Assembly: GCF_036053395.1 (NCBI RefSeq)
Contig: NZ_CP107942.1
Location: forward strand, 5,298,501 to 5,362,500
Reading direction: 5' to 3'
Length of the DNA: 64,000 bases
Origin: Actinoplanes sp. NBC_00393
GTDB lineage: Bacteria; Actinomycetota; Actinomycetes; Mycobacteriales; Micromonosporaceae
Shown one piece after another: positions 31,666 through 62,318 of this stretch. Every line of letters starts with the position of its first letter. Within the stretch, counting starts at the first letter, position 1. Under the pieces are notes generated by a model, which searched no databases, was not told where the DNA came from, and worked only from the letters and a program-made list of their open reading frames with translations. The translations under genes were made by a program, and so were the position numbers.

Positions 31666-31951
31666 CGTCACTCCGGAAGACTGGGGGTTCCCGGCCGGGA
31701 ACGAGCCGGACCGGCTGGTCGCACCGCGGGTCGGCGACGTCGATCAGGTGGGTGAGCACGATCGGGCCCTCGGTGAGCCGGACCCGGGCGAGGGTGTAGG
31801 GCGTCTCGGCCCGGTGGACCACGGTGAAGCTGTCCACCGTGCCGGTGCCGGCGGCGGGCACGTCGTGAAGCTCGCTGCCACCGCAGCCGGTGCACAGCAC
31901 GCGCGGGTAGTGCTGGAACCGCCGGCAGGTGCGGCACTGCTGGAGCATCAT
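31655..31951 (-). CDS. DUF35 zinc-ribbon/OB-fold protein
   Basis: The 98-residue protein has a rubredoxin-like zinc ribbon (Cys6, Cys9, Cys20, Cys23) and a short OB-fold (DSFTVVHRAETPYTLARVRL, VLTHLIDV). DUF35 proteins bind thiolase-like partners; in steroid side-chain degradation the DUF35 part of ChsH2 is needed by the aldolase Ltp2. The thiolase-like gene upstream overlaps it by 4 bp, so a complex is very likely. It is slightly shorter than the 120-140 residues usual for the family. Confidence 0.85.
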   Translation of the reverse strand: MMLQQCRTCRRFQHYPRVLCTGCGGSELHDVPAAGTGTVDSFTVVHRAETPYTLARVRLTEGPIVLTHLIDVADPRCDQPVRLVPGREPPVFRSDDGL

Positions 31952-40389: not shown

Positions 40390-40507
40390 CCCGGAACAGG
40401 AACGACAACTGATTCGGGCGAAGCCTAGCCTGCCATTCCGCCCTGGGAAACGCTGTACCGCTGCGCGGTTGACACGACCGGATGACCTCGTTACGTTCAG
40501 CGTAACG

Positions 40508-40526
40508 GTGTTTCCATACGCGAAAC
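40508..40526. promoter_or_regulatory. IclR-type operator before the oxidative operon
   Basis: GTTTCCATACGCGAAAC forms an inverted repeat (GTTTC-7-GAAAC), preceded by GGT. It lies 8 bp before the GTG start of the flavin-reductase fusion gene, with GAGG in between as ribosome site. It matches the 38.83 kb site in reverse orientation. Confidence 0.65.
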
Positions 40527-40534
40527 GAGGCTCG

Positions 40535-41581: not shown

Positions 41582-41585
41582 CACC

Positions 41586-47892: not shown

Positions 47893-49044
47893 ATGCACGA
47901 GATCGTGATTCTGGGCGGTGGCTACACCGGGATGGGCGCGGCGACCACGCTTGCCGGCCTGACCAGGGGCCGCGACGACGTACGGATCACCGTAGTCAAC
48001 GGCAGTGAACGGTTCACCGAGCGGCTCCGGCTGCACCAGACGGCTTCCGGGCAGCGGCTCGCCGACCTGCGCATCCCGGATCTGCTGGCCGGGACCAGCG
48101 CCGGGCTGGTGACCGGTTGGGTGACGCGGGTCGACACCGGGGCGCGGGTGGTCCGGGTGGACGACGAGCGGGAGATCCACTACGACACGCTGGTCTTAGC
48201 GCTCGGCGGCGTCACGGACACCGCCGCTGTTCCGGGGGCGGACGAGAACGCGTACACCCTGGAGAACGCGGAAGCGCTCGCCCGGCGGCTGGACCGTCTG
48301 GGCAGCGGGACCGTGGCGGTCTGCGGCACCGGGCTGACCGGGATCGAGGCCGCCACCGAGATCGCCGAGCAGCACCCGGGCCTGGACGTGCTGCTGATCG
48401 GCCGCAGCGCGCCCGGCTCGGACCTGGGCCGGCGCGCCAAGACCTATCTGGACCGGTCGCTGGCCCGGCTGGGGGTACGCGTGCTCGCCGGCGCCGAGAT
48501 CACCAAGGTGCTGCCGGACGCCGTCGAGACGACCTCCGGCGAGACGATCGCGGCCGACGTGATCCTGTGGACCGGCGGCGTACGCGTCCCGGCGCTGCCC
48601 GCCACGGCCGGCCTCACCGTCGACGACAGGGGCCGGATCGTCACGGACGGCTCGCTGCGCTCGGTATCGCACCCCGACGTCTACGCGGTCGGCGACTCCG
48701 CCGCGATCCGCCAGAAGTACGGCGTCATGCACGGCACCTGCCAGGGCGGCATACCGAGCGCGGTGCACGCGGCCTACTCGATCGCGCGGGAACTCGACGG
48801 GCGGGAGCCGAAGCGGTTCCGGTTCGGGTACGTGCACCTGCCGATCAGCCTGGGCCGGCGGGACGCGGTCATCCAGTTCAGCCGGCCGGACGGCAGCCCC
48901 AAACGGCTGGCGCTCACCGGGCGGGCGGCGGTCTGGTACAAGGAGACGGTGAGTTCCTCGCCGTGGCCGTCGTTCCAGCGCCTCCTCAAGACCCCGGCAG
49001 TGGGCCTGTTCTCGTGGCGGCGGGGCGGCCGGTACACCCGATGA
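47893..49044 (+). CDS. NAD(P)/FAD oxidoreductase paired with an ECF41 sigma factor
   Basis: The 383-residue flavoprotein is of the NDH-2/AIF type: EIVILGGGYTGMGAATTLAGL at the N-terminus, VAVCGTGLTGIEAATEIAEQ for NAD(P)H and PDVYAVGDSAAIR for FAD. It lacks the C-terminal membrane segment of true NDH-2. The ATG follows GGAGAGGAG. Its stop overlaps the sigma factor start. Such oxidoreductases are the usual genomic partners (COE class) of ECF41 sigma factors and are their likely targets. Upstream, TGTGATC-17-CGTC resembles the ECF41 promoter pattern weakly. Confidence 0.83.
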   Translation: MHEIVILGGGYTGMGAATTLAGLTRGRDDVRITVVNGSERFTERLRLHQTASGQRLADLRIPDLLAGTSAGLVTGWVTRVDTGARVVRVDDEREIHYDTLVLALGGVTDTAAVPGADENAYTLENAEALARRLDRLGSGTVAVCGTGLTGIEAATEIAEQHPGLDVLLIGRSAPGSDLGRRAKTYLDRSLARLGVRVLAGAEITKVLPDAVETTSGETIAADVILWTGGVRVPALPATAGLTVDDRGRIVTDGSLRSVSHPDVYAVGDSAAIRQKYGVMHGTCQGGIPSAVHAAYSIARELDGREPKRFRFGYVHLPISLGRRDAVIQFSRPDGSPKRLALTGRAAVWYKETVSSSPWPSFQRLLKTPAVGLFSWRRGGRYTR

Positions 49045-49940
49045 GCAGCCCCTTCGAGGAATACCGCAACCTGCTGTTCTCGGTGGCCTACCGGATCCTC
49101 GGCACGGCCGTGGACGCGGAGGACGCGGTGCAGGACACCTGGGTCAAGTGGTCGGCGGCGGACCGCTCCCAGGTGGCCGAGCCGAAGGCGTACCTGGTGC
49201 GGATCGTGACCAACGTGGCGATGGACCGGCTGCGGTCGGCCCGGGCGCGCCGCGAGACGTACGTCGGGCCGTGGCTGCCCGAACCCATCCTGACCAGCAG
49301 CGACGCCGCCGACGACGTGGCCGTGGCCGAGTCGGTGTCGGCCGGGCTGCTGATGCTGCTGGAGAGCCTCAGCCCGCTCGAGCGTGCGGTGTTCGTGCTG
49401 CGGGAGGCGTTCGGCTTCGGCTACGCGGAGATCGCGGCGGCCGTGGAGCGCTCCGAGGAGACCGTGCGGCAGGCGGCGCACCGGGCGCGCGGGCACGTGC
49501 AGGACCGGCGGCCCCGGTTCGCCGCCACGCCGGCGCGGCACCGGCAGGTCACCGAGCGGTTCTTCGCCGCCGCCGGGGGCGGCGACATCAACACCCTGAT
49601 GGAACTGCTCGCTCCGGATGTCGCGCTCTGGACCGACGGCGGCGGACGGGTACGCCAGGCGCTGCGCCCGGTGATCGGCGCGGAACGGGTGGCGGCTTGG
49701 CTGGCCGGGGTGGGCAGCCGGGCGTACGAGGGGGTCGAGCCGGCCGACATGCGCGTCGAGATCGCCGAGCTGAACGGCGCGGCCGGCCTGGTCTTCCACG
49801 CGGCGGACCGGGTGCTGGCCACGATGACCGTCGAACTCGGCCCGGACGGCCGGATCGTCGCGATCCACAACGTCGCCAACCCGGAGAAGCTGGGCGCGGT
49901 CACCACCGGAACCGTGCACACCCTCCCGACCCCCGGCTGA
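49041..49940 (+). CDS. ECF41-type (SigJ-like) RNA polymerase sigma factor
   Basis: The 299-residue protein has sigma region 2 (EEYRNLLFSVAYRILGTAVDAEDAVQDTWVKW split about 6-36), region 4 (LSPLERAVFVLREAFGFGYAEIAAAVERSEETVRQ) and a C-terminal SnoaL-like domain (about 175-295, FFAAAGGGDINTLMELLAPDVALWTDGGG). In this class the C-terminal domain replaces a separate anti-sigma factor. It is translationally coupled to the oxidoreductase. The link to the surrounding catabolic genes is uncertain. Confidence 0.9.
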   Translation: MSSPFEEYRNLLFSVAYRILGTAVDAEDAVQDTWVKWSAADRSQVAEPKAYLVRIVTNVAMDRLRSARARRETYVGPWLPEPILTSSDAADDVAVAESVSAGLLMLLESLSPLERAVFVLREAFGFGYAEIAAAVERSEETVRQAAHRARGHVQDRRPRFAATPARHRQVTERFFAAAGGGDINTLMELLAPDVALWTDGGGRVRQALRPVIGAERVAAWLAGVGSRAYEGVEPADMRVEIAELNGAAGLVFHAADRVLATMTVELGPDGRIVAIHNVANPEKLGAVTTGTVHTLPTPG

Positions 49941-50332: not shown

Positions 50333-51976
50333 ATGTCCGGTGTTCTACGCGTCGCCGCCGCCCAGATCGAAGCCGGTCAGGACGTGCCCGCCAACCTCGC
50401 CGCCTGCCTGCGCGTCATCGACGCAGCCGCCGCACAGCGGGCCCAGCTCGTGGTGCTCCCCGAGTTCTGCAACCATCTGTCGTGGTATGCGTCGCGCGAG
50501 CAGGCCCACGAGCTGGCCACCCGCCCCGGCGACGCCTTCCTGAGCGCAATCTCGGCACGAGCGCGCCGGCACGGCATCTGGATCAAGATCAACGTCACTC
50601 ATGCGTACGCGGACGCGCGCACCGGCGGCACGAACCTGCTCTTCGACCCCGCCGGCGTCGTCGTCGCGCAGTGCGACAAGCAGACCCTGATGGGCGCGGA
50701 GAACGACTTCCTGCAGCCGGCGCCAACCGTCGGCCCGGTCATCGAGACGCCGCTCGGACGGCTCGGGATGTACGCGTGCATGGAAGGCGTGGTCAACGAG
50801 GTGGCCCGCGGGCTGGCGCTGCGCGGGGCCCAGGTGCTGCTGAACAGCCTGAACAGCTTCGCCCTGGACGAGTCGGACCTGCACATCCCGGTCCGGGCCG
50901 CGGAGAACAAGGTGTGGGTGGTGGCCGCCAACAAGGTCGGGCCGCTGCTGCCGCGCGACTCGCTGCCGGCGATCGCGGAGGGTCTGGGCGTGCCGCCGGA
51001 GTGGCTGCACGGCGCCGGCGAGAGCCAGATCGTCGCGCCGGACGGCACCGTGGTGGCGAAGGCGCCGCGCACCGGCGAGGCCGTGATCGTCGCCGACATC
51101 GACCCCTCGCTCGCCGACGACAAGCGGCGCCCGGACGGGACGGACATCTTCGCCACCCGCCGGCCGGCGCTCTACGGGCCGATCGCCGCGCCGCCGGTCG
51201 GGCGGCAGCGGCCACCCGGAGCACCGACGCTGCCGGTCGCTGTGGTCCGCTCACTGTCCGCCGTCCGGGACGCCGCACTGGCCGGCGTGCAGTTGCTGGT
51301 GCTGCCGCCCCACGCCGCCGCCGCGGCGCCCACCGCCGCCGCGCCCACCGCCGCCGCGCCCACCGCCGCCGCGCCCACCGCCGCCGCGGCCACCAGCGGG
51401 CACATTTCCGAAATTTCGGAAATGTTGGTCGGCACCGAAGCTCATGCCGTCATCGCGGCCGATGACGAGAGCTTCGTGATCAGCGCGGCCGGGATCGTCG
51501 CGCGGCAGCCGCGGTTGCACGGCGGGCCGGGCAAGGAGATCATCCCGGTCGATCTGGATTGGGGCCGCCTTGCGGTGATCGCCGGGGACGACGCGCTCTA
51601 CCCCGAGACCTTCCGGCTCGCCGCGCTGCTCGACGCCGACGTGGTGGCGGTGCCCTACCAGGCGCAGGAGCCCTGGGAGCTGGCGCTGGGCCTGCCCGAG
51701 CGGGCCGCCGAGAACCGGCTCAACCTGGTGGTCAGCACGCCGCTGGACCAGCCCGCGGCGATCTTCGCGATGACCCCGGACTTCACCCTCTGGACCAAGT
51801 GGGAGGGCCCGTTCACCGGGCGCATCTCCACACCGGTCCGGTTCGACGTGCCGGCCGGTGATCCGGTGGGCACGGCGAGCGTCGCTCCCGCCCAGGCCGC
51901 GAACCGCCTGGTGTCGCGCAACACCGATCTCGTCGACGGCCGTCCCTGGCGGCTGGCCGACGCCCTTATCAGATAA
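50333..51976 (+). CDS. Double nitrilase-superfamily amidase, second half degenerate
   Basis: The 547-residue protein contains a full carbon-nitrogen hydrolase domain (about 1-275) with catalytic Glu44 (VVLPEFCNH), Lys116 (CDKQTLMG) and Cys149 (GMYACMEG). A second, shorter nitrilase-like half (about 300-520) lacks the catalytic residues: the Cys site reads AVIAGDDALYPE. The two are joined by an (AAPTA)n stretch. The first domain should hydrolyse an amide or nitrile. As first gene of the operon it may open amide or lactam products of bilin-like or maleimide type, which is inference. The ATG has GGGGG upstream. Confidence 0.8.
   Translation: MSGVLRVAAAQIEAGQDVPANLAACLRVIDAAAAQRAQLVVLPEFCNHLSWYASREQAHELATRPGDAFLSAISARARRHGIWIKINVTHAYADARTGGTNLLFDPAGVVVAQCDKQTLMGAENDFLQPAPTVGPVIETPLGRLGMYACMEGVVNEVARGLALRGAQVLLNSLNSFALDESDLHIPVRAAENKVWVVAANKVGPLLPRDSLPAIAEGLGVPPEWLHGAGESQIVAPDGTVVAKAPRTGEAVIVADIDPSLADDKRRPDGTDIFATRRPALYGPIAAPPVGRQRPPGAPTLPVAVVRSLSAVRDAALAGVQLLVLPPHAAAAAPTAAAPTAAAPTAAAPTAAAATSGHISEISEMLVGTEAHAVIAADDESFVISAAGIVARQPRLHGGPGKEIIPVDLDWGRLAVIAGDDALYPETFRLAALLDADVVAVPYQAQEPWELALGLPERAAENRLNLVVSTPLDQPAAIFAMTPDFTLWTKWEGPFTGRISTPVRFDVPAGDPVGTASVAPAQAANRLVSRNTDLVDGRPWRLADALIR
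51326..51385 (+). repeat. Four 15-bp units encoding AAPTA
   Basis: GCGCCCACCGCCGCC is repeated exactly four times, with diverged copies at both ends. It lies within the linker of the degenerate nitrilase half. Confidence 0.9.
51403..51424. repeat. 22-bp perfect palindrome inside a coding region
   Basis: The arm CATTTCCGAAA is followed at once by its reverse complement. It is strikingly AT-rich for this genome and encodes HISEISE right after the repeat stretch. It could be a regulator site inside the gene, a hairpin in the message, or the scar of an inserted element. Confidence 0.85.
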
Positions 51977-51991
51977 GAAGGGTGCCCCATA

Positions 51992-52804
51992 GTGGCCGAG
52001 ACGATCCAGCACGTGGAGGACATGGTCGACGGTTCGCCGGTCGTCGACGTGCACGACACGTTCAACTATTACCGGCAGCTGCTCGCCGATCTGAAGGCGA
52101 AGATCGACGCCCGGTTCGAGACCTCCCGTGATCCCTCCACGCTGGACCTGCAGACCTACGGCACCTATCCGGACGGGCCGGGCGGCTCGCTGGAGGCGTA
52201 CGCCGGACCGGAGGTCGACTGGCTGGTCCACTCCTGGATCGGCAACCCCGGCGCCAGCTTCGCCAACCTGCACCTGACCTGTTGGCTCGGCCCGCAGGTG
52301 AAGGTGCCGCACCTGGGCATCGCGCTGCTGGTCTGGCCGGGCGGCTGGTTCTACCTGGACTCGGTGCCGCGGACGAACATGGTCGAGGACGCCGGCTACT
52401 TCGACAAGTACTACGCCGAACTGGACGAGGAGTGGCTGGAGCTGCGGGCCGATCCGCAGTTCGAGTATTTCGTGAGCCGGGCCGGGTTCATCCGGGCCAG
52501 CCTGTCGCCGACGGCGTACTGCTACTCGTTCGAGCGGTCGCAGCGGAACCTGGAGATCGTGTCGGCGCGGGCGCACGCGCACGTGGACCGGTGGCTGCGC
52601 TGGGTGGACGAGGCCGACGCCGTTCCGCAGGAGGAGCAGGCCGCGCTGGCCGCCACCGACGAGACGATCCGCCGGAACATCGCCGAACGGGACCCGGCGA
52701 ATGTGATGGGCGTCCGCTTCTTCGGCGAGGAGACGACGAACAAGCTGGTCCGGGCGCTGTGGGGCGGCGACCGGGAACTGCCGCGGCCGGGGACCGGGTC
52801 ATGA
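51992..52804 (+). CDS. Red chlorophyll catabolite reductase-like protein (bilin reductase superfamily)
   Basis: The 270-residue protein aligns by eye with plant red chlorophyll catabolite reductase (ACD2): VDWLVHSWIGNP, PHLGIALLVWPGGWFYLDSVPR, YFDKYYAELDEEW, YFVSRAGFIRASLSPTA (SPTA at 172-175) and RFFGEETTNKLVRALWG near the end, in the same order and spacing. The plant enzyme reduces red chlorophyll catabolite using ferredoxin. Plant catalytic Glu154 does not seem conserved, so the exact reaction may differ. The GTG start has AAGGGTG upstream. A second, more distant relative lies three genes downstream. A general hypothetical-protein call is the fallback. Confidence 0.62.
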   Translation: MAETIQHVEDMVDGSPVVDVHDTFNYYRQLLADLKAKIDARFETSRDPSTLDLQTYGTYPDGPGGSLEAYAGPEVDWLVHSWIGNPGASFANLHLTCWLGPQVKVPHLGIALLVWPGGWFYLDSVPRTNMVEDAGYFDKYYAELDEEWLELRADPQFEYFVSRAGFIRASLSPTAYCYSFERSQRNLEIVSARAHAHVDRWLRWVDEADAVPQEEQAALAATDETIRRNIAERDPANVMGVRFFGEETTNKLVRALWGGDRELPRPGTGS

Positions 52805-53760
52805 GCGTCCGGTCGGTGTGGTGGGCCGCGACGATTCCCGGGGCCGCGGCGCCGTTCGACACCGCCCATCTACGGGTTTTCTACCCCGCTCGCCCCACCG
52901 GTTCGGATCAGGAACGGCTCTCCGGGGTCTTCCCCGCCGACCCGTCGCTCGCTCCCTACCCGGTGGCCGTGATCGTGTCCGGCGTCAACGTCGGTCAGGA
53001 GGCGTATCGGTGGCTGGCTGTGGAGCTGGCGTCCCGTGGCTTCGTCGCCGTCACGTACGACTGGGTGGGTGAGCTGTTCGGGGGGCTGCGGGGGATCACG
53101 CCCGGCGTCGAGCTGGCGGCCGCCCGGCCGGATGCCTACGGCACGCGGGCGACCACGCCGTCGGTGCCGGCGGTCCTGGACGCGCTGGCGACCATGACGG
53201 GGCCGGTCGAAGGCCTGCTCGATCTCGACAGGGTCGGGCTGATCGGGCACTCGGCCGGCGGGACGGTCATCCTGCAGAGCGCGCGGTTCTTCCCAAGCGT
53301 GAAAGCGGTGGCGGCGTACGGCACGCACACCATGGTCGCCACGATGCTCGGCTGGCCGGCCGGGACCGTGCTGCCGGCGCAGGTGGACTGCCCGGTGCTG
53401 CTGATGAACGGCGAGAACGACGGGGTCATCAACGGTTCCGCCGACCGGTACGGCGAGGACGCCGCGACCCGGCGCGACCCGATCAGCCGCACCTTCGACG
53501 AGGCGCTGCCCAACAGGGGCGGCGAGAACGTGCAGGTCACCTTCTCCGGCGCGAACCACTTCGGGATCGTGCACCCGGTCGACGACACCGCTGCCCGCGC
53601 GTTCCTCGACCTCGAAGCCACCACCGACCCGGCCGCGACCCGGGCGGCACTCGCCGAGGTCACCGCGGCGTTCCTCGACACCCATCTGCGTGGCGCCACC
53701 GGCGACGCGCTCGACAAGGCCCTTCAGCACCCGGACATCGCCGGGATACGGCGGAGGTAA
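52801..53760 (+). CDS. Chlorophyllase-like alpha/beta hydrolase
   Basis: The 319-residue enzyme reads YPVAVIVSGVNVGQEAYRWLAVELASRGFVAVTYDWVG (split around the oxyanion loop), nucleophile motif GHSAGG, an acid loop LLMNGENDG and a His in ANHFGIVHP. The spacing of the sGVNVG.eaY..la..LASrGFvavt element recalls chlorophyllase and dienelactone-type hydrolases. It starts at ATG overlapping the RCCR-like stop. In context it could remove an ester (phytyl or methyl) from a porphyrin-like or other substrate; a carboxylesterase of another pathway is possible. Confidence 0.7.
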   Translation: MSVRSVWWAATIPGAAAPFDTAHLRVFYPARPTGSDQERLSGVFPADPSLAPYPVAVIVSGVNVGQEAYRWLAVELASRGFVAVTYDWVGELFGGLRGITPGVELAAARPDAYGTRATTPSVPAVLDALATMTGPVEGLLDLDRVGLIGHSAGGTVILQSARFFPSVKAVAAYGTHTMVATMLGWPAGTVLPAQVDCPVLLMNGENDGVINGSADRYGEDAATRRDPISRTFDEALPNRGGENVQVTFSGANHFGIVHPVDDTAARAFLDLEATTDPAATRAALAEVTAAFLDTHLRGATGDALDKALQHPDIAGIRRR

Positions 53761-53765
53761 CAGCC

Positions 53766-55007
53766 ATGCTCAAGAACTTCTGGTACGCGGTGGAGTTCTG
53801 CGACCGGGTCACCACCAAACCGGAGCGGATCACGGTGCTCGGGCAGCACTTCGTCATCTACCGCACCCCCAAGCAGGGCCGGGTCGTGGTTCTGAGCGAC
53901 CTGTGCGTACACCGTGGGGCGGCCCTCTCCGGCGGGTGGCTCAAGGACGACAAGATCGTCTGCCCGTACCACGGGTGGGAGTACGAGCCGGACGGGCAGT
54001 GCAGCAGGATCCCGGCGAATCTGCCGGGGCGGGGCATCCCTCGCAAGGCACGGGTGGACTCGTACCCCGTACAGGAGAAATATGGTTTTGTCTGGGTCTT
54101 TCTCGGTGACCTGCCCGAGGAGGAGCGGCCGCCGATGCCGGTCTGGCCGGAGTTCGACGACCTGGTGGAGAACGGCGGCAAGTTCCGCGTGGTGACCGGC
54201 GAGTTCCTGTGGAACGCCAACTACGAGCGGATCCTGGAGAACGGCTGCGACATCGCGCACGCGCCGTTCGTGCACGCCGGCCGGTTCGGCAATCCGGACA
54301 TGCCGCAGGTTCCGGACTACGAGGTGGAGCACCCGGACGAGTGGTCGGCGTTCGCCACCGTCGACCTGCACCCGCCGAAGCCGTCCGGTCTGTGGGGCAA
54401 GTTCGGCCGGCTGATCGGCAACGACCTGAAGAAGCGCCCGCCGGTCACCACGTCGGCCGGTTGGATGCTGCCCAACATGATCAAGCTGCACGTGCGGCTG
54501 CCGATCGGCGACATGATCATCTACGACACGAACATCCCGATCGACGAGACGCACACCCTGGTCAAATGGGTTGCGCTGCGCACCTTCTTCACCGGCACAT
54601 GGGCAAACAAAGATGCGATCAACCGTACGATGCGCATCTTCTACGAGGATGCGGCGGTGGTCGACAAGGTCCGGCCCGAGCTGCTGCCCTTCGACCTAGG
54701 CGCGGAACTGCACATCAAGAGCGACCTCATCGCCGTGGAGTACCGGCGGCGGCGTCAGGAGCTGGCCGACAAGGGCTGGCTGCTCAACGAGGAGGACTTC
54801 ATCACCGGCGACGTGCCCCGGCGCACCGCCACGGTGATCCCCTCGCCGGCCCGCCGGGAGAACGCCGAACTGAACCGGGCCTGGGTGCACAAGGCGCGCG
54901 GCGAACACCCGACCGTGGCCGCGGCCCGGCTGATGGGCGCCGGCCCTGACGAAACCGCCGACCCGCCTTCCGCTCCCGCCGAAGCAGTGAAGGAGACCGA
55001 CCAGTGA
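53766..55007 (+). CDS. Rieske non-haem iron oxygenase (pheophorbide a oxygenase/VanA-like)
   Basis: The 413-residue protein is a class I-type Rieske oxygenase alpha subunit. The 2Fe-2S site is Cys47-x-His49 and Cys66-x2-His69 (CPYHGW). The mononuclear iron site is Asp162, His165 and His170 (CDIAHAPFVH). The start FWYAVEF and the N-terminal Rieske domain resemble both VanA/KshA and pheophorbide a oxygenase. No C-terminal membrane helix or CxxC motif of plant PAO is present, so it should be soluble. GGAGG precedes the ATG. No ferredoxin or reductase gene is in the operon, so electrons must come from elsewhere. Confidence 0.82.
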   Translation: MLKNFWYAVEFCDRVTTKPERITVLGQHFVIYRTPKQGRVVVLSDLCVHRGAALSGGWLKDDKIVCPYHGWEYEPDGQCSRIPANLPGRGIPRKARVDSYPVQEKYGFVWVFLGDLPEEERPPMPVWPEFDDLVENGGKFRVVTGEFLWNANYERILENGCDIAHAPFVHAGRFGNPDMPQVPDYEVEHPDEWSAFATVDLHPPKPSGLWGKFGRLIGNDLKKRPPVTTSAGWMLPNMIKLHVRLPIGDMIIYDTNIPIDETHTLVKWVALRTFFTGTWANKDAINRTMRIFYEDAAVVDKVRPELLPFDLGAELHIKSDLIAVEYRRRRQELADKGWLLNEEDFITGDVPRRTATVIPSPARRENAELNRAWVHKARGEHPTVAAARLMGAGPDETADPPSAPAEAVKETDQ

Positions 55008-55693
55008 GCCTGCCTTCCGCGCTCTCCGACAGCACGCTCGCCAAGATCCTCGCCCGGGTGCCGGTATCGCTTGCGGAGGACCGCGCTCTCACCTCGCCGA
55101 TGAGCCCCACCCCGGTCGGACAAATCCGTGTTTGGCGGGGCGATGGTCCGGTGGTCAAGGTGGTCAACGTCAGCCTGGTCGTCCCTGCGATCGGCCTGGA
55201 CAGTCACATGATCTTCGCGTTCACCGCGCCGGACTCCGGAGTCCCGCACTTCACGCTGGATTCGGTCGCCAACGGCGAGAACTACGCCTTCCACCTCGAC
55301 CTGATCCCCCGGATCGACCTGGCGACCTCGCTGTCCTACCTGGACGAGGTGTATGAGCCGCTGACGACGGTCTTCACCGCGACGCGCAGTCGTGACGGGC
55401 TCTCTCCGGCTCACCTGGCCCCTCGCCAATATGCTCTTATGTCACCTTGGATGCTGGTCAATCGGGCGACTGAGGCCGCCTTCCGGTCGATCGATGACGC
55501 CGTCGACGCCTACTTCACTCACTGGGCTTCGCTGGTCGAAACCGGTATCAAGGCCGAAGGCACCGCGACTCGCGATGCAGCACATCGGGAGCTGCTGTTC
55601 AGCCCGGAGATCGACCCGGTCTGGAAGCAGACGGTACGGCTGCTGGGCGAGGAGCAGAGCGAGTCCGTCAGAAAACAGCTGGTGAGCAACTGA
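55004..55693 (+). CDS. Second bilin-reductase/RCCR-superfamily-like protein
   Basis: The 229-residue protein shows a weaker version of the bilin-reductase pattern: GVPHFTLDSVANGENYAFHLDLIPR (split around residue 90), YLDEVYEPLT, RDGLSPAHLAPRQYALMSPWMLV and a C-terminal helix with LLGEEQSESVRKQLV. PHF.LD and DL.PR are seen in ferredoxin-dependent bilin reductases. It differs from the first RCCR-like protein by length and most residues, so the two may act on different positions or form a heteromer. GTG start overlaps the Rieske stop. Confidence 0.52.
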   Translation: MSLPSALSDSTLAKILARVPVSLAEDRALTSPMSPTPVGQIRVWRGDGPVVKVVNVSLVVPAIGLDSHMIFAFTAPDSGVPHFTLDSVANGENYAFHLDLIPRIDLATSLSYLDEVYEPLTTVFTATRSRDGLSPAHLAPRQYALMSPWMLVNRATEAAFRSIDDAVDAYFTHWASLVETGIKAEGTATRDAAHRELLFSPEIDPVWKQTVRLLGEEQSESVRKQLVSN

Positions 55694-56613
55694 TGAGCGA
55701 ACCCAGCACCTGGCAGAAACGCATCGCCGGTGAATGGCACGGCCGGCCCTCCCTCTTCGATCACGCCGGCACGTGGTGCGGGTTCGAGGAGATCCGGCGC
55801 TCGTCGGACTTCGTCGACGGCGTGACCACGTACCGGATGGACGGCGGCCTGGTCGGCGGCGGACCCCTGGCCGGGCAGTTCCGCCTCGGCGCCCCGTTCT
55901 CGTTCGGCGTCGTCGACTCCGACCAGAACCGGGTCTACACCGGACCGGACTTCTTCGGCACCGGCCAGCCGTACGGCAGCTTCGTCGACTCGCACTACTA
56001 CGGGCCAGGCTGGCAGGTCGACCTGAACACGTGGAACCAGGTGCTCCCGGACGGCGACACCCAGGTCTACTCGTCGGTCCTCTACCAGGGCTGGGCGGTG
56101 GTCGGCTGCTTCAACGGCGTCTACACCCGGGAACCCTCGAAGGTCGACGATCTGATCGCGGCGGAGACCCGCAACGGGCCGGTGCCGTACATCCTGCCCA
56201 CCAAGGAAGCCGGCGCCTTCACCGGCGACCTGGAGTTGTGGAGCGCCGATCAGAAGTTGCGCGGCACCGTGTCGGCGTCGATCGCGCTCGAACCGATCGA
56301 CCTGCTGCGCACCCGGCGGACGATCACCTGGCAGGGCGCCGGCCTGGACCGTTCCGTTGCGGTGGAGACCCGGCGGGACGGCAACCGGCTCTTCTTCGAG
56401 GGGCCGCAGGCGTGGGGCAACGCGATCGGTTTCGGTCGCGCCTCGTTCCAGTCGCTGCACCTCACCGACGTCTGGAAGATCAAGGGGCGGGAGTTCTCGA
56501 TCGACGCGGCCCCAGGCATGTCGGCGGGCCGGCAGCTCGCGGTCGTCTACGAGCTGTTCGACGGCGGCAACCTGGACTCGGTGCTGCACGGCCTCCTGGA
56601 GTGGACCTCATGA
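55693..56613 (+). CDS. Hypothetical beta-rich protein, possibly lipocalin-like
   Basis: The 306-residue protein has many short alternating strands with Gly/Asp turns (YRMDGGLVGGGPLAGQFRLG, YYGPGWQVDLNTW, YSSVLYQGWAVVGCFNGVYTRE) and no membrane helix. The pattern suggests a double beta barrel that could bind a large hydrophobic ligand. I cannot assign a family; a lipocalin-type pigment carrier is only a thought. Its ATG shares one base with the upstream TGA, and its stop overlaps the SDR start, so it is an integral operon member. Confidence 0.62.
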   Translation: MSEPSTWQKRIAGEWHGRPSLFDHAGTWCGFEEIRRSSDFVDGVTTYRMDGGLVGGGPLAGQFRLGAPFSFGVVDSDQNRVYTGPDFFGTGQPYGSFVDSHYYGPGWQVDLNTWNQVLPDGDTQVYSSVLYQGWAVVGCFNGVYTREPSKVDDLIAAETRNGPVPYILPTKEAGAFTGDLELWSADQKLRGTVSASIALEPIDLLRTRRTITWQGAGLDRSVAVETRRDGNRLFFEGPQAWGNAIGFGRASFQSLHLTDVWKIKGREFSIDAAPGMSAGRQLAVVYELFDGGNLDSVLHGLLEWTS

Positions 56614-57365
56614 CCGTCGTGGTGGTGACCGGCGGGACCCGCGGGATCGGGCATGGCCTGGTCCGCGCCTTCCTCGCCGAGGGGGCGTCGGTGGCGTACT
56701 GCGGGCGTTCGCTGCCCGACGACGGCCCGCCGGAGGCGCTGGCCATGGTCGCGGACGTCACCGATCGCGCCGACGTGCGCATGCTCTGGGACGCCGCCGT
56801 CGACAAGTTCGGGAAAGTCGACATCTGGGTCAACAACGCCGGGATGTCGAACTCGCGCCGGCCGCTGTGGGAGCTGGATCCCGCCGAGATCGACTCGGTC
56901 GTGCAGCTCAACCTGCAGGGCACTCTGCACGCGAGCGCGGTCGTCCTGGAGGCGATGCTGGCACAGGGGCACGGCGCGCTCTGGAACATGGAGGGGCTCG
57001 GCTCCAACGGGCAGATCGTTCCGGGCCTCACCCCGTACGGCGCGACCAAGCGGGCCCTCACCTACGCCACGCTCGCCATGGCGAAGGAGCTGAAGGGCAA
57101 ACCGGTCAAGGTGGCGCTGCTCTCCCCCGGCATGGTCGTCACCGACCTGCTCATCCAGGACTACGACCCGGCCGAACTGGAGAAAGCCAAGAGGATCTTC
57201 AACATCCTGGCCGACCGGGTCGAGACGGTCACCCCCTGGCTGGCCCGCAAGGTGCTGGCCGGTACGAGCAACGGCGGCCGGGTCGCGTGGCTGACCAGCC
57301 GCAAGGCCGCCTATCGGTTCGCCACCGCGGCCTTCCGCAAGCGCGACGTCTTCGGGGAGCCGTGA
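56610..57365 (+). CDS. Short-chain dehydrogenase, NYC1/NOL (chlorophyll b reductase)-like
   Basis: The 251-residue SDR has the cofactor motif GGTRGIG (8-14), NNAG (75-78) and Tyr143-x3-Lys147. Beyond general SDR features it shares with plant NYC1/NOL the segments IWVNNAG..., RPLWEL, WNMEGLGSNG (plants: FNMDGAGSGG), SPGMVVTDLL, RIFNILADRVETVTPWL and a following WLTS. These are unusual among SDRs. NYC1/NOL reduce the 7-formyl group of chlorophyll b. The bacterial substrate may be another carbonyl on a tetrapyrrole-like ring. Plain SDR is certain; the NOL-like subgroup is my reading. Confidence 0.72.
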   Translation: MTVVVVTGGTRGIGHGLVRAFLAEGASVAYCGRSLPDDGPPEALAMVADVTDRADVRMLWDAAVDKFGKVDIWVNNAGMSNSRRPLWELDPAEIDSVVQLNLQGTLHASAVVLEAMLAQGHGALWNMEGLGSNGQIVPGLTPYGATKRALTYATLAMAKELKGKPVKVALLSPGMVVTDLLIQDYDPAELEKAKRIFNILADRVETVTPWLARKVLAGTSNGGRVAWLTSRKAAYRFATAAFRKRDVFGEP

Positions 57366-58006
57366 TGGAGTACCCGATCGCTCTGGCGCTCGAGGACTTC
57401 GTACCGGTCGTTCTCGGCACCACCGGATTCGCGCTGCTCGCGCGTACCGCTCCGAATCTGCCTGCGCAACGCGCGGGCCTGGCCGGAGCCCTGCTGATCG
57501 GCGCCGGCGGCATCGCCAAATGTGTCTGGAAGCTGGGGTACGCGGCCGGCGCCGGCGACTGGAAGCTGCTGGAACAGCTGCTGTTCCCGCTGATGGCGGC
57601 CGGCGCGACGCTACTCGCCTGGGCCCTCGCCGTCACCGTGCGGCGTGGCAGGCCGACCCGCTTCTGGCCGTTCGCGCTCGCCTTCGGGCTGTGCGCGGCC
57701 GGCGCGATCCTGGCCGGCAGCCTCAACCCGCTGTTCGTGGCGGCCACCCTCGGCGTCACCGCGATCAGCGTCCTCGGCGCGATCGTCGCCGGCCGGTACC
57801 GGCAGTGGTGGGCCGTGTCGCTCTACGTCCTCGGGCTGGTCCTGGTGATGGGGCTGGTGCCGCTGCGCTCGTCGGACGAGCACCACACGCTCGCCTTCCA
57901 GTGGCTGGAACAGTCGATCAACACCGCCGCGCAGGCCTGCCTGCTCGTCGCCGCCTGGCTCACCCTCCGCGCAACGCGGCCCGCACTCGTTGGAGCTTCG
58001 CAATGA
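57365..58006 (+). CDS. Membrane protein of the operon
   Basis: The 213-residue protein has six to seven predicted membrane helices with short loops and one conserved-looking DEHHT loop (SSDEHHTLAFQWLEQ). There is no transporter signature I recognise. Start and stop overlap the flanking genes, so it is stoichiometrically tied to the pathway. It might anchor the oxygenase complex, supply electrons or bind the hydrophobic substrate. Confidence 0.65.
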   Translation: MEYPIALALEDFVPVVLGTTGFALLARTAPNLPAQRAGLAGALLIGAGGIAKCVWKLGYAAGAGDWKLLEQLLFPLMAAGATLLAWALAVTVRRGRPTRFWPFALAFGLCAAGAILAGSLNPLFVAATLGVTAISVLGAIVAGRYRQWWAVSLYVLGLVLVMGLVPLRSSDEHHTLAFQWLEQSINTAAQACLLVAAWLTLRATRPALVGASQ

Positions 58007-58746
58007 CTGATGCCCTCGGCTGGCGCCGCAAGTTCGGCGTCATCGCCCCGTCGACCAACACGATCGTCGAGCCGGACTTCTACGCCATGGCCGTACCCGG
58101 TGTGACCTCGCACTTCTCCCGCATCCACATCCGCAACCAGGACCTGTCGGACGACGCCAACTTCGAGAATCTGCTGGTGCAGATCCGGGCGGAGATCGGC
58201 GCGGCCTGCGAGCGGGTGCTGACCTGCGAGCCGGACTACATGGTGATGGGCATGTCGGCCGAGACGTTCTGGGGCGGGGTGGAAGGCAACCGCGAGTTCG
58301 TGGCCCAGATCAAGGCGATCACCGGCCTGGACGTGGCCACCGGAGCGGAGGCCTGCGAGCGGGCCCTGAAGCTCTACGGTGCCCGCAAGATCGGCGTGGT
58401 CACGCCGTACCAGCCGGTCGGTGACGCCAACGTGGTCCGGTTCTTCGGCGAGATCGGGTTCGAGGTGGCCGCGATCCAGGGCCTGAAGTGCCCGACCGCG
58501 GTGTCCATCGCCCACGTGACCGAGGACGAACTGCGGGCCGCCATCCTCATGGTGAACACCCCGGACGTGGACGCCATCGTGCAGTGCGGGACCAACCTGT
58601 CGATGGTCCGCCTGGCCGACGAGGCCGAGCGCTGGCTGGGCAAGCCGGTGATCGCCATCAACGCGGCCACCTGGTGGATGGCGCTGCGGGAGAACGGCAT
58701 CAAGGACAAGGTCTACGGAGCCGGCAGTCTCCTGCGCGAGTACTGA
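58003..58746 (+). CDS. Maleate isomerase/arylmalonate decarboxylase-like protein
   Basis: The 247-residue Asp/Glu racemase-superfamily protein has APSTNTIVEPDF at the N-terminus, VMGMSAETFWGG near 81-92 and IVQCGTNLSM with Cys195. Maleate isomerases use two Cys; here the first site carries Met-Ser, while the second Cys is kept, as in arylmalonate decarboxylase. A cis-trans isomerase acting on substituted maleates, or a decarboxylase, is possible. It is the last gene of the operon, fitting a late step on a small dicarboxylate fragment. A hairpin follows. Confidence 0.75.
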   Translation: MTDALGWRRKFGVIAPSTNTIVEPDFYAMAVPGVTSHFSRIHIRNQDLSDDANFENLLVQIRAEIGAACERVLTCEPDYMVMGMSAETFWGGVEGNREFVAQIKAITGLDVATGAEACERALKLYGARKIGVVTPYQPVGDANVVRFFGEIGFEVAAIQGLKCPTAVSIAHVTEDELRAAILMVNTPDVDAIVQCGTNLSMVRLADEAERWLGKPVIAINAATWWMALRENGIKDKVYGAGSLLREY

Positions 58747-58815: not shown

Positions 58816-59505
58816 CTAGCGGAAGCCGGCCATCCGCCGGCGGCGGGCGGGCAGCAGCATCAGCAGGCCGATGCCGGGCAACATCAGGGCACTGCCGATC
58901 AGTACGACCGTCGCCCACTCCTGCCCGGGCCCGGTCTTCGGCAGCGCGCCCCCGGCGGCCGGAGTCGAGGACCGGCTGGTCGTGGTCCCCGCAGGAGTCG
59001 TCTTCGTCGCGGCCGGGCTCGTCGTCTTGCTGGGAGTCGGGCTGGCCGGACCACCACCGCCACCGCCGAAGGTGATCGGGACCTGTGCCTTGTTCGCCTC
59101 GACCACCTCAGGCTCGGCGGCCGACGGCAGGATCTGCGCGGCGATCACACAGCCGTCGGTGCCGCAGTCGTGCCCACCGAAGCTGGTGGCCAGCTTGAGC
59201 GAGATCTGCGCGGTGTTCCCGGACGCGTCGGCGTTCACGAAGACCGCGCCACCGGCAAGATTGCAGTCGGTCGAGGTGGCCGGGTCCTTGATGCACTGAC
59301 CCAGCGCGATGTTCGTCAGGCTGGCGGTGAAGCCGTTGCCGGACACGGTGACGGTGTCGCCGTCCTTGAGACCGCTCGTCTTGGAGACGGTCAGAGTCGG
59401 GGCGGCCGCGGCCGGCGTACCGGTCATCAGCACGACCGCGCCGGCACAGACCAGGCCGGCCGCGACCGCCGCGGCCAGCCGGCGGATGCGGGGATAACGG
59501 GGCAT
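58816..59505 (-). CDS. Cell-wall-anchored protein with neocarzinostatin-like domain (LPKTG)
   Basis: The 229-residue protein has a signal peptide (1-37, ending AAA-AP), a neocarzinostatin-like immunoglobulin domain (about 38-140, LTVSKTSGLKDGDTVTVSGNGF, four Cys in two expected disulfides), a Ser/Thr/Pro spacer and the sorting signal LPKTG followed by a helix and Arg-rich tail. Sortase should fix it to peptidoglycan. The domain could bind a small hydrophobic molecule, as neocarzinostatin does. The ATG has GGAGG upstream. No sortase gene is nearby. Confidence 0.85.
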   Translation of the reverse strand: MPRYPRIRRLAAAVAAGLVCAGAVVLMTGTPAAAAPTLTVSKTSGLKDGDTVTVSGNGFTASLTNIALGQCIKDPATSTDCNLAGGAVFVNADASGNTAQISLKLATSFGGHDCGTDGCVIAAQILPSAAEPEVVEANKAQVPITFGGGGGGPASPTPSKTTSPAATKTTPAGTTTSRSSTPAAGGALPKTGPGQEWATVVLIGSALMLPGIGLLMLLPARRRRMAGFR

Positions 59506-59525: not shown

Positions 59526-62318
59526 TCAGGATCGGGCGACGGCAGCCTCGTCGGTGCCGAGGTAGGACAGGACGACTGCGGGATGGGACCGGACCTCGTC
59601 CGGCGTCCCCTCCGCGATCACCCGGCCGGCGTCCATCGCGATCAGCCGGTCGGCGACCCGGGACAGCAGCGGGAGATCATGCTCGATGACGAGGATCGTG
59701 GTGCCGAGCTCGGCGCGAACCCGCAGCATCAGATCGGCGAGGCCGGCGCCGTCGGCCTGGGTGAGGCCGGACGACGGTTCATCCAGCAGCAGCAGCCGCG
59801 GGCGCAGGGTGAGCAGGCAGCAGAGCTCAACGACGCGGCGGGTGCCGGTGGAGAGCTCACCGACCGGGCGATCAGCCAGCCACCCCAACCCCATCGCACG
59901 CAGGGCCGCATCAGCGGCGCCGGCTTTGCTGATTTCGGCGCCGTCAACACCCAAGATCTCAAGCCCCAGCTGTACGGGTAGACCGCACTCCGCCGCCACC
60001 ATGACGTTCTCCCGGACCGTCATGGCCGGAAAGAGCCGAGCGTCCTGAAACGACCGGACCAGCCCGGCCCGGGCCCGCCGCTCCGGTGTCCACTTGGTGA
60101 CGTCCCGCCCCTGGTAGGCGACCGCTCCCCCGTCCGCCGAGGTGAACCCCGCAAGAATCTCGAAGAGCGTCGTCTTCCCGGCGCCGTTGGGCCCGATGAT
60201 CCCGACGATCTCCCCCACGCCGACGGTGAAGGTGGCTTCCTGCACGGCCCGCACCCCACCGAACGCCCGCCGGATGCCGCTGACCTCAAGAAGCGACCCG
60301 GGCCCGTCGTGCGGCACGAGCGGTTCGGCCGGCAGCCCAGAGATGCTCCAGAGTCGAGGCCGCCCTCCGAACGACAATTCCGGCACCTCGGCCGGCCCAC
60401 CCAACGGCTCGGTGCCAGACGGAACGGAATGGGTCGTTCCGTTCGGGAGCCACGCGGGTGCGGCCCGGAGGCGGGCCGGAGCGCGATGGAGCGGCGCAAC
60501 GCCGGGCCGGGAGACGGCACCGCGGAGCCGGCGTGGGAGGGACTCGGTCAGGAGGCCGCCGAGGCCGTTCGGCAACAGGATGACCACCAGGAGCCAGCCC
60601 AGCGTCAACGCAGCCTGGCCGGGAATGCCCAGCGGAAACAGCGCCGGCAAGCCGACGATGACGGCCGAGCCGAGGAGGGCGCCGCCGGTGCGGGCCAGGC
60701 CGCCGACGACGGCGATGGCGACCACGTCGATGCTGGCGGCGGCCGGGAAGCTGTTCACGCTGAGCTGGGACTGGCCGAAGCCGATCACGACTCCGCCGAG
60801 GCCGGCCAGGGCGCCGGCTACGGCGTACACCTGGAGTTTGCGCAATGGGGCCCGGACCGTCAGTGCCCGGCCGGCGTCCTCGTTGTCGCGCAGTGCCAGC
60901 AGGAGGCGGCCGAAGCCGCCGCCAGCGAGCCGGGCGGTGACCCACCAGCCGATCCCCAGCAACACCAGCGCGAACAGGTAGTAGTCGACGGCGGTGCTGA
61001 CCACGTAGCCGTTCCAGACCGGGTAGGGCACGGTCCGGCCGTCGCCGAGCAGCCACGGCTGGCGCAGCAGCCAGCCGCTGGTGGCCAGCGCGAAGGCGAG
61101 CGTGGTGACGCCCAGGGCCACGCCGCGCAGCCGCAGCGCCGGGATGCCGATCAGGACCGCGGAGAAGGCGGCGGCCGCGCAGCCGGCCAGGACGCCGAGG
61201 AACATGTTGCCGGTCAGGGTGGCGATCTGAACGGCGACCGCCGCGCCGATGCCGGCGAAGCCGAACTGGCCGAGGGAGAGTTCGCCGGCGATGCCGGTCA
61301 CCAGGATCACCGAGAGCGCGACCAGCGTGTAGCCGCAGACCGTGGTGAGGACCGACGCGGTCGCGTTGCTGACCACATAGGCCAGTCCGACGCCGGCAGC
61401 GGCGAGCAGGGCCAGCCCGATGCGGGCGGCGATGCCGGCCCGGTGGGTGGTCTGCCGCGGCCAGGGTGCGGGAGTCTCGCGACGGCCGGCCTGTTTCTGC
61501 AGCAACAGCGAGATCAGGATGACGGCGCCGAGGACGACGTCGACGAAGCCCATCGACTCGCGGGTGAGCAGCACCTGCTCCAGGACGCCGATGCCGATGG
61601 AGGCGACGAACGCGATCGGCAACGAGGTCATCCGGGCGATCACCGCGCCGGCCAGGCCGCGCAGCAGCAGTTGCGGGCCGAGCGATTCGATCGACTGCAC
61701 GCCCTGGGTGGGGGTGAGCAGGATGGCCGAGAACGCGGCGATGGCCCCGGCGACCGCCCAGGCCAGGCTGGCCATCCGGGGCGCCGGTACGCCGTTGACG
61801 GTCGCCGCGTCCGGATGGTCGGCGGCGGCCCGGATGCCGATGCCGAAGCGGGTGCGGCGCAGGAAGAACGCGAGGGCGGCCAGCAGCACCGGGGTGAGCA
61901 GCAGCATCGCGGTCAGCGACGAGCCGACGGCGGTGGTGCCGAGGGTGAACGCCGGCAGCCCGGGCGGCTTCGGGTAGGTGGCGCCGGAGAAGCTGTCCCG
62001 GGACACCAGCAGGGCCAGGACCAGGATGAACTGGGCCAGGCCGAGGGTGGCGATCATGCCGATCACCCGCGGCCGGCGGTAGAGGCGGCGGACCACGACC
62101 ATCTCGATGAGCGCGGAGAGCCCGCCGGCCACCGCGATGGCGATCGGGAACGCCAGCCAGTACGACATGCCGGTGGCGAGACGCGCCAGCACCGCCGCGC
62201 CGAAGACACCGACCGCGCCGTGCGCGAAGTTGACGAACCGGCTGGACCGGTAGACCAGCACCAGGCCGATGGCGAGCAGCCCGTACGTGAGTCCGGTGAA
62301 GAACCCGACCGCGATCAT
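59526..62318 (-). CDS. LivH-LivM-LivG fusion: two permeases and an ATPase in one chain
   Basis: The 930-residue protein joins three usual Liv subunits. Residues 1-285 are LivH-like (VLVYRSSRFVNFAHGAVGVFG). Residues 300-600 are LivM-like (GIAGELSLGQFGFAGIGAAVA, AVVGGLARTGGALLGSAV). After a Pro-rich linker of about 80 residues comes a LivG ATPase (about 680-925: Walker A GPNGAGKTT, signature region ELSTGTRRVVELCCLL, Walker B LLLLDEPSSGL, IEHD). The signature is LSTGT instead of LSGGQ. The ATG overlaps the livF stop. Permease-ATPase fusions are known; a triple one is uncommon. No frameshift or stop is seen at the joints. Confidence 0.87.
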   Translation of the reverse strand: MIAVGFFTGLTYGLLAIGLVLVYRSSRFVNFAHGAVGVFGAAVLARLATGMSYWLAFPIAIAVAGGLSALIEMVVVRRLYRRPRVIGMIATLGLAQFILVLALLVSRDSFSGATYPKPPGLPAFTLGTTAVGSSLTAMLLLTPVLLAALAFFLRRTRFGIGIRAAADHPDAATVNGVPAPRMASLAWAVAGAIAAFSAILLTPTQGVQSIESLGPQLLLRGLAGAVIARMTSLPIAFVASIGIGVLEQVLLTRESMGFVDVVLGAVILISLLLQKQAGRRETPAPWPRQTTHRAGIAARIGLALLAAAGVGLAYVVSNATASVLTTVCGYTLVALSVILVTGIAGELSLGQFGFAGIGAAVAVQIATLTGNMFLGVLAGCAAAAFSAVLIGIPALRLRGVALGVTTLAFALATSGWLLRQPWLLGDGRTVPYPVWNGYVVSTAVDYYLFALVLLGIGWWVTARLAGGGFGRLLLALRDNEDAGRALTVRAPLRKLQVYAVAGALAGLGGVVIGFGQSQLSVNSFPAAASIDVVAIAVVGGLARTGGALLGSAVIVGLPALFPLGIPGQAALTLGWLLVVILLPNGLGGLLTESLPRRLRGAVSRPGVAPLHRAPARLRAAPAWLPNGTTHSVPSGTEPLGGPAEVPELSFGGRPRLWSISGLPAEPLVPHDGPGSLLEVSGIRRAFGGVRAVQEATFTVGVGEIVGIIGPNGAGKTTLFEILAGFTSADGGAVAYQGRDVTKWTPERRARAGLVRSFQDARLFPAMTVRENVMVAAECGLPVQLGLEILGVDGAEISKAGAADAALRAMGLGWLADRPVGELSTGTRRVVELCCLLTLRPRLLLLDEPSSGLTQADGAGLADLMLRVRAELGTTILVIEHDLPLLSRVADRLIAMDAGRVIAEGTPDEVRSHPAVVLSYLGTDEAAVARS

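Follow-up and report, generated by a model that had tools for sequence, protein, structure and literature searches.

The operon and its genes

The window analysed here is a 64,000-nucleotide stretch of the genome of Actinoplanes sp. NBC_00393, which consists of one contig of 11.43 Mb. Nine genes (A to I), all on the plus strand, occupy positions 50333-58746 of this window and form an operon in which a protein of the red chlorophyll catabolite reductase (RCCR) family stands beside a second reductase with the fold of RCCR and the ferredoxin-dependent bilin reductases (FDBRs), a Rieske oxygenase and a short-chain dehydrogenase/reductase (SDR) resembling plant NOL. The genes are as follows.

50333-51976, plus: A, nitrilase-superfamily amidase, candidate half-amide/lactam-acid hydrolase (CN_hydrolase, 141 bits)
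51992-52804, plus: B, RCC_reductase family (PF06405) protein (66.4 bits against a cut-off of 24.9)
52801-53760, plus: C, alpha/beta hydrolase, candidate esterase (PETase 37.2, DLH 30.1 bits)
53766-55007, plus: D, Rieske non-heme iron oxygenase, VanA type (Rieske 71.8, VanA_C 96.1 bits)
55004-55693, plus: E, second RCCR/FDBR-fold protein (fold model)
55693-56613, plus: F, twin-calycin protein, candidate bilin/tetrapyrrole binder (fold model)
56610-57365, plus: G, NYC1/NOL-like SDR (34% identity to grape NOL)
57365-58006, plus: H, membrane protein (by eye), lineage-specific
58003-58746, plus: I, maleate isomerase/arylmalonate decarboxylase superfamily protein (Amdase, 73.1 bits)

An earlier note on this DNA had reported nine overlapping genes. 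The nine are confirmed, and six of the eight junctions do overlap, whereas gaps of 15 and 5 bases separate A from B and C from D, respectively. These are real genes rather than chance open reading frames, because their catalytic residues are invariant in the aligned rows. Neither a ferredoxin nor a ferredoxin reductase was recognised among the nine by Pfam annotation, as the note had also stated.

Two RCCR/FDBR-type reductases

With respect to B and E, the proposal of two RCCR/bilin-reductase-type proteins was borne out. B passes the curated PF06405 cut-off and matches the AtRCCR structure 3agb with an E value of 8.8e-21. E falls below both curated cut-offs (PF05996, 17.8 against 31 bits; PF06405, 14.7 against 24.9 bits), and both proteins are under the Fe_bilin_red cut-off. 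The structure model of E has the FDBR/RCCR fold, with fold scores that tie with PebB and HY2. Of the two reductases only E was modelled, the fold of B following from sequence homology to the solved RCCR, and no mismatch to the RCCR/FDBR fold was encountered.

The active sites were compared in an alignment of 37 rows of chosen representatives, including seven plant RCCRs and stretches of PebB and HY2. We take AtRCCR Glu154 and Asp291, and likewise the FDBR acid pair at the PebB positions, to be catalytic acids. The Asp291 column, Asp234 in B, is Asp in 37 of 37 rows. The Glu154 column is Glu in all seven plant rows, Ala (Ala111) in 11 of 11 operon B rows, Asp in 11 of 11 E rows and in PebB, Asn in HY2, and Ile in six of six gammaproteobacterial relatives of B. 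Asp86 and Asp204 of E are invariant in 34 rows and align with the Asp/Asp pair of PebB, and both B and E carry His in place of an RCCR Asn. Judged by sequence, then, B is RCCR-like and nearer to RCCR than to the FDBRs, with a pocket that is not identical, and the pocket of E is of the more canonical FDBR type. Reduction of red chlorophyll catabolite (RCC) by B with ferredoxin is a predicted activity.

An NYC1/NOL-like reductase

Plant NYC1 and NOL have been described (PMC3541173), and real plant NOL proteins were used to test the kinship of G. The alignment with grape NOL scores 116 bits and spans the length of the protein, including its C-terminal part. When NOL was searched against the whole genome, 50 SDR matches were returned, with G at the top (97 bits; runner-up 62.9). 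Consistent with this, across 16 further genomes the operon gene G was the best NOL match in all eight operon carriers (94-145 bits, with positions compared with those of the loci), whereas the best matches in eight same-genus genomes lacking PF06405 reached only 60-70 bits. A tree of chosen representatives (14 G proteins, 6 NOL proteins and 14 other SDRs) joins G and NOL in one clade with support of 99/99. Measured on a common scale, the score of G is 99-111 bits against NOL and at most 66 against the tested SDRs of its own genome; among solved SDRs the top score, 88, belongs to a FabG-type enzyme. Over enzymes of that type the margin is thus real but moderate. Reciprocal search, controls and tree all place G closest to NOL, in line with the earlier assignment, and within this limited SDR background it does not group away from NYC1/NOL. 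Formyl reduction on chlorophyll b by G would be the predicted reaction. In Micromonospora rubida, a second NOL-like SDR (L100:7939-8736, minus strand; 111.8 bits to NOL) lies about 27 kb upstream of the operon G.

The remaining operon proteins

The structure model of F is a twin calycin that resembles DUF3598/BFA1, and fold comparison relates its N-terminal domain to nitrobindin and CpeS. No Pfam family, DUF3598 included, matched F at an E value of 0.1.

A consists of an N-terminal CN_hydrolase domain joined by a low-complexity Ala/Pro/Thr linker to a second half lacking a Pfam match. E44, K116 and C149 are invariant in 49 rows, and the nearest solved chains are 3ivz/1j31 of the nitrilase family, which upholds in outline the call of a nitrilase-family amidase. 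In C, S151, D207 and H253 are invariant in 50 rows. The protein passes the PETase and DLH cut-offs and fails that of Chlorophyllase (PF07224, 16.4 against 26 bits), so the description of this hydrolase as chlorophyllase-like did not hold.

For D, the Rieske ligands C47/H49/C66/H69 and the mononuclear iron ligands H165/H170 are invariant in 55 rows, and the nearest solved chains are SxtDIOX, SxtT, NdmA and DdmC, methylxanthine and dicamba demethylases being among these. The earlier claim of a PAO-type Rieske oxygenase therefore stands for the Rieske cluster and the iron site but not for the PaO subfamily: D is of the VanA type, with VanA_C instead of the PaO C-terminal domain (PF08417), which was not matched at an E value of 0.1. 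No PaO domain was found in the whole genome, though the same search rang in two control genomes. PAO-type enzymes carry a CxxC motif; a C-terminal CxxC is absent from D, whose last Cys is residue 161.

H has no Pfam match. I matches maleate isomerase 2xed with an E value of 1.4e-12. We take two aligned positions to be the catalytic cysteines of maleate isomerase; C195 of I coincides with the C-terminal of these or precedes it by a single residue, the alignment having a gap there. The residue aligned with the N-terminal cysteine is Met83. Accordingly, the maleate-isomerase-like label survives as superfamily membership but not as an intact catalytic pair.

Conservation and distribution

A scan that picks relatives sharing short patterns with B, and is not exhaustive, yielded 74 loci. 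Genes were called with a codon model seeded with operon homologues, which replaced a caller that chose antisense reading frames in high-GC loci. Group counts rest on these calls and on sequence clusters, of which representatives only were annotated by Pfam or NCBIfam. Alignment A3 was built from the window plus 32 of these 74 loci, and alignments A1 and A2 from the window plus 33 loci apiece. Matches to G were dropped above an E value of 1e-30 in the synteny scan and below 40% identity in the group counts; residue alignments dropped rows shorter than 80% of the window protein and, for I, also those below 65% identity.

In the searched collection, the loci most closely related to the operon come from Actinoplanes and other Micromonosporaceae. 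Of the 38 loci from Micromonosporaceae and Nocardia, 37 keep the order A-B-C-D-E-F-G-(H)-I. The remaining one, L009 (Actinoplanes couchii), has B plus matches to A and D only, C and E-I not being found there, and is possibly a decayed or different cluster. By group, the 12 Micromonosporaceae loci carry A, B and D in 12 and C and E-I in 11; the 26 Nocardia loci carry A-G and I in all 26 and H in 5. Among 14 loci from Acidimicrobiia-type metagenome-assembled genomes (MAGs), B, D, E and F occur in 14, A in 11, C and G in 10, and H in none; this group also takes in L038, which is labelled Rhodospirillaceae, L047 ('bacterium'), L046 ('Actinomycetota bacterium') and L055 ('uncultured actinobacterium'). 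Three deltaproteobacterial and Chloroflexi MAG loci have B and C in three, D, E and F in two, A and I in one, and G and H in none. Conserved blocks of the operon extend from Actinobacteria to Acidimicrobiia-type and Chloroflexi MAGs and to a single deltaproteobacterial MAG. Beside B, Acidimicrobiia-type and Chloroflexi loci have extra conserved genes (L044:13625-16396, minus strand; L051:1793-5212), namely one that resembles F, one for a DUF3891 protein (112 bits, L044) and two whose products look calycin-like by eye and have no Pfam match.

The 19 gammaproteobacterial loci (L056-L067, L069-L075) hold a diverged B relative only, the rest of the operon being absent. In 17 of them a response regulator, a histidine kinase and a ferredoxin-type gene lie near B, and two members of the last were confirmed as Fer2 (2Fe-2S). 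They might constitute a distinct system that makes or senses bilins.

At the level of genomes, PF06405 was found in 3 of 396 genomes of a phylum sample, the window's own among them, and D adjoins B in the other two. In a sample of 200 family genomes, PF06405 (E value up to 1e-3), E and F (each up to 1e-10) all occur in the same 29, which include the window's own, and in 0 of the remaining 171. This exact co-occurrence, together with patchy presence, indicates one inherited or exchanged unit.

The surrounding cluster

The operon appears to be the upper part of a catabolic cluster of about 34 kb that probably spans 29.6-63 kb of the window. The genes flanking the operon are given below.

29639-34865, minus: HpcH/HpaI (citrate-lyase/citramalyl-CoA-lyase superfamily) lyase, acyl-CoA dehydrogenase, thiolase-like protein, two MaoC-type proteins and a RidA-type protein (Pfam; syntenic in relatives)
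34862-36130, minus: MmgE/PrpD family protein (MmgE_PrpD_N, 206.7 bits)
36127-37326, minus: CaiB-type (family III) CoA-transferase (CoA_transf_3, 409.7 bits)
37323-38348, minus: luciferase-like monooxygenase (Bac_luciferase, 204.6 bits)
38345-38812, minus: mesaconyl-CoA-hydratase-like protein (MC_hydratase, 67.9 bits against a cut-off of 26.5)
39563-40363, minus: IclR-family regulator between the divergent arms (IclR_C, 154 bits)
40469-41581, plus: flavin reductase-like protein, candidate partner of the gene at 41586 (Flavin_Reduct, 147.3 bits; HsaB/HpaC-like below cut-off)
41586-42872, plus: acyl-CoA-dehydrogenase-fold protein, candidate flavin monooxygenase (Pfam)
42869-44332, plus: aldehyde dehydrogenase (Aldedh, 310 bits)
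44380-45201, plus: C-C lyase of the isocitrate lyase/PEP-mutase superfamily (PEP_mutase, 137 bits)
45198-46352, plus: FAD-dependent monooxygenase (FAD_binding_3, 180.6 bits)
46349-47809, plus: second aldehyde dehydrogenase (Aldedh, 374 bits)
58816-59505, minus: secreted neocarzinostatin-family protein, conserved neighbour (Neocarzinostat, 72.6 bits)
59526-63046, minus: branched-chain-amino-acid-type ABC importer, fused permease-permease-ATPase plus second ATPase (BPD_transp_2, 182.9 bits; ABC_tran)

The best solved matches of the candidate monooxygenase at 41586-42872 are the FAD-dependent oxidoreductases 3m9v/4kcf, with nitrososynthase and DszC also among the matches. For the lyase at 44380-45201, 2,3-dimethylmalate lyase 3fa3 is the second-best solved match (E value 4e-44), and a methylisocitrate-lyase-like assignment falls below cut-off. 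Genes at 47893-49940 (NDH-like oxidoreductase and sigma-factor-like, by eye) were excluded from the core, as they lie upstream of the operon only in L002 and L003.

Conservation of this arrangement was followed in 20-kb upstream stretches of ten operon-bearing family genomes, at least three of which (L103, L107, L110) end short of the full left arm; matches below 30 or 40% identity or covering under half of the query were dropped. The IclR gene, flavin reductase, candidate monooxygenase, an aldehyde dehydrogenase and the isocitrate-lyase-family gene occur in 10 of 10 stretches, and HpcH and the hydratase-like gene in 7 of 10 each. Directly upstream of the operon, Micromonospora rubida has an amidohydrolase, CaiB, cyclase, MmgE/PrpD and HpcH set that resembles the block flanking the operon in Acidimicrobiia-type MAGs. 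In eight Acidimicrobiia-type loci that share this flanking block, the same position is taken by an amidohydrolase cluster in four cases and by a hydantoinase A/B pair in the other four; annotation covered one member of either kind. The L044 amidohydrolase is allantoinase/dihydropyrimidinase-like and the L046 hydantoinase A/B protein caprolactamase-like, both below cut-off. These may represent two unrelated routes to open a cyclic amide.

Among the neighbours to the right of the operon, the neocarzinostatin-family protein and the ABC importer each have their sequence cluster in 8 of the 12 Micromonosporaceae loci; that of the former is also found in 24 of 26 Nocardia loci, and that of the latter in 8 of 14 Acidimicrobiia-type loci. 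The neocarzinostatin-family protein, a putative chromophore-binding surface protein next to a proposed pigment pathway, may serve as a capture protein. Nocardia loci have a second, similar-looking neocarzinostatin-family gene. Elsewhere in the window, the first residues of the translations, judged by eye, point to a separate region at 5405-15943, where an FAD-dependent enzyme and a CoA-transferase-like pair accompany a second ABC importer of the branched-chain type.

Two further components of tetrapyrrole metabolism were sought. No heme oxygenase lies within the window; the two in the genome are 2.8 and 3.7 Mb away, and heme oxygenase was rejected as a cluster member on account of this distance. 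Mg-dechelatase (Staygreen) was found in 0 of 16 genomes, with control genomes equally silent, so this result has no bearing on the interpretation below.

A proposed tetrapyrrole catabolic pathway

We propose, with modest confidence, that the ~34-kb cluster serves the uptake and breakdown of a tetrapyrrole, open-chain or macrocyclic and most likely chlorophyll-derived, of the pheophorbide or phyllobilin type. What the analysis shows is the families to which the genes belong, the folds of E and F as modelled, the conserved active sites, the conserved linkage and, in one family sample, the exact co-occurrence of B with E and F. The IclR, ABC importer, CoA-transferase, mesaconyl-CoA-hydratase-like and HpcH/HpaI lyase genes suggest a catabolic setting. 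The tetrapyrrole route of the earlier note is strengthened by this surrounding cluster, which that note did not contain, whereas its substrate is still something that we infer.

In terms of mechanism, C would remove an ester from the substrate, G would reduce a formyl or keto group, as NOL acts on chlorophyll b, and D would oxygenate the substrate, perhaps in a PaO-like ring opening. B and E could carry out a two-step reduction of the bilin system with electrons from a ferredoxin encoded elsewhere, and F could carry the open-chain pigment. RCC has a formyl group (1-formyl-19-oxophyllobiladiene; PMC4950323). This group would be a possible target of G or of the aldehyde dehydrogenases.

The flavin monooxygenases and aldehyde dehydrogenases at 40469-47809 might then cut the chain to single-ring imides or lactams. 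Oxidised tetrapyrroles yield 3-methyl-4-alkyl maleimides, that is, alkylated citraconimides. A, or in relatives the cyclic amidohydrolase or hydantoinase A/B-type enzyme, would hydrolyse such imides or lactams to methyl-maleate-like acids, which I, the isocitrate-lyase-family enzyme and the divergent arm (CoA-transferase, MmgE/PrpD, mesaconyl-CoA-hydratase-like protein, thiolase and HpcH/HpaI lyase) could convert to central metabolites. The outer modules could thus open a cyclic amide, hydrolyse the half-amide, transfer CoA, hydrate, and perform a citramalyl-CoA-type cleavage of a citraconate/mesaconate-type acid. Tetrapyrrole catabolism is the most economical explanation because these modules join relatives of RCCR, FDBR, NOL and calycins, and chlorophyll products are favoured because there are a candidate esterase and an NOL-like enzyme and no heme oxygenase in the window. 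More tentatively, actinomycetes and uncultured Acidimicrobiia-type bacteria may have in common a chlorophyll-mineralising pathway in which plant-like upper steps (NOL-type reduction, Rieske opening, two RCCR/FDBR reductions and a calycin carrier) feed methylmaleimides into a mesaconyl/citramalyl-CoA route.

Several observations weigh against the degradation of a chlorophyll-derived tetrapyrrole. We infer the substrate, the order of steps and every reaction. The chemistry of B may differ from that of plant RCCR because the acid at AtRCCR Glu154 is replaced by Ala, and the tree of RCCR, FDBR, B and E does not resolve the deep branches and carries a long-branch warning. C was rejected as chlorophyllase-like, being the weakest of 13 matches in the genome to the chlorophyllase profile at E values up to 1. 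D was rejected as a member of the PaO group, and since it is VanA-type and the genome has no PaO-domain protein, no ring-opening step is recognised. I was rejected as a canonical maleate isomerase for want of the N-terminal Cys, and is absent from all 14 Acidimicrobiia-type loci. The NOL kinship of G was tested against limited SDR sets (own-genome SDRs, 16 further genomes and solved structures), the MC_hydratase match spans profile positions 21-167 of 353, under half, and the ABC importer belongs to a type usual for small molecules.

The strongest alternative is that the cluster degrades haem-derived or phycobilin-type bilins (biliverdin, bilirubin, phycobilins), with the Rieske enzyme and SDR modifying side chains. 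We consider this unlikely, though the acid pair of E, its fold-score tie with PebB and HY2, the resemblance of the first domain of F to phycobilin lyase and the presence of two heme oxygenases in the genome all accord with it. Those heme oxygenases are distant (at other loci they were not searched for), B is nearer to RCCR than to FDBRs, and biliverdin needs neither an NOL-like reductase nor an esterase. Slightly less credible still is a non-tetrapyrrole substrate, for which the RCCR/FDBR fold, NOL-like SDR and calycin would have been recruited to another conjugated heterocycle or amide. The lower-pathway genes are indeed generic, D, C, A and the flavin enzymes come from broad families, and B is without one acid, but the linkage in the same genomes of several tetrapyrrole-linked families (two RCCR/FDBR paralogues, an NOL relative and a DUF3598/CpeS-like calycin) argues the other way. 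Synthesis of a tetrapyrrole-derived natural product or chromophore is very improbable: oxygenases, reductases and SDRs are frequent in biosynthesis and the gammaproteobacterial B relatives lie near a two-component system and ferredoxin, but the importer, IclR, CoA-transferase, thiolase-like and lyase neighbours and the exchangeable ring-opening enzymes are catabolic hallmarks, and no carrier-protein or assembly-line family is among the annotated genes.

Degradation of a chlorophyll-derived tetrapyrrole would be of wide interest. Chlorophyll is made and lost at planetary scale, and heterotrophic bacteria presumably share in the loss; if the substrate is confirmed, this would be a bacterial pathway for one of Earth's most abundant pigments. 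The cluster makes bacterial chlorophyll breakdown testable in culturable actinomycetes, offers B, E and F as marker genes for metagenomes and is a source of new RCCR/FDBR-type enzymes. It also bears on the origin of plant NOL and RCCR, which, were the chlorophyll-mineralising proposal true, would be relatives or descendants of bacterial scavenging enzymes.

Comparison with known systems

The RCCR match of B as a single gene is not new, and some B homologues are already named red chlorophyll catabolite reductase in the protein database (P0035 and P0088, among the best 120 of 785). No description was found of the operon, of the second reductase, of the link to NOL or of the lower pathway. Among the top-ranked papers of one open-access library we found no account of a bacterial RCCR/NOL operon, which does not establish its absence from print, nor of bacterial genes for opening and mineralising chlorophyll; the physiological role of bacterial Mg-dechelatase homologues has been called unknown (PMC8531759).

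RCCR homologues have been reported from Nostoc and Anabaena, with two neighbouring genes in Nostoc punctiforme (PMC2716323), and are likewise prokaryotic RCCR-domain proteins. The main text of that report does not use the word Actinobacteria, and no account of an operon was found there. FDBRs of heterotrophs have been described in a study whose outgroup consisted of RCCRs and related sequences (PMC10151467). E shares the fold and acid pair of the FDBRs/pre-PcyA proteins treated in that paper, and the hosts are heterotrophic in both cases; in contrast, B and E here are below the Fe_bilin_red cut-off, the neighbourhood is catabolic, and no heme oxygenase, bilin-binding globin or V4R family is among the genes annotated.

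The closest overall parallel to the upper steps is the plant PAO/phyllobilin pathway, of which an RCCR-family reductase, an NOL-like SDR and a Rieske oxygenase are here in one operon. Unlike in that pathway, the oxygenase is VanA-type without the PaO domain, the hydrolase is not chlorophyllase-like and there is a second RCCR/FDBR-type reductase. Plants store phyllobilins, whereas the cluster continues into an apparent mineralising lower pathway.

That lower pathway in turn recalls the degradation of itaconate and mesaconate, which proceeds by CoA-transferase, hydratase and citramalyl-CoA lyase, and the hydrolysis of cyclic imides, likewise a known pathway. The former is mirrored by the mesaconyl-CoA-hydratase-like, CaiB and HpcH/HpaI genes (RipC-like in L044), and the latter by the cyclic amidohydrolase or hydantoinase A/B of relatives. 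In contrast to both known pathways, the lyase- and lactamase-type NCBIfam scores here are below the equivalog cut-offs, and the genes are linked to an upper module of RCCR, FDBR, NOL and Rieske relatives.

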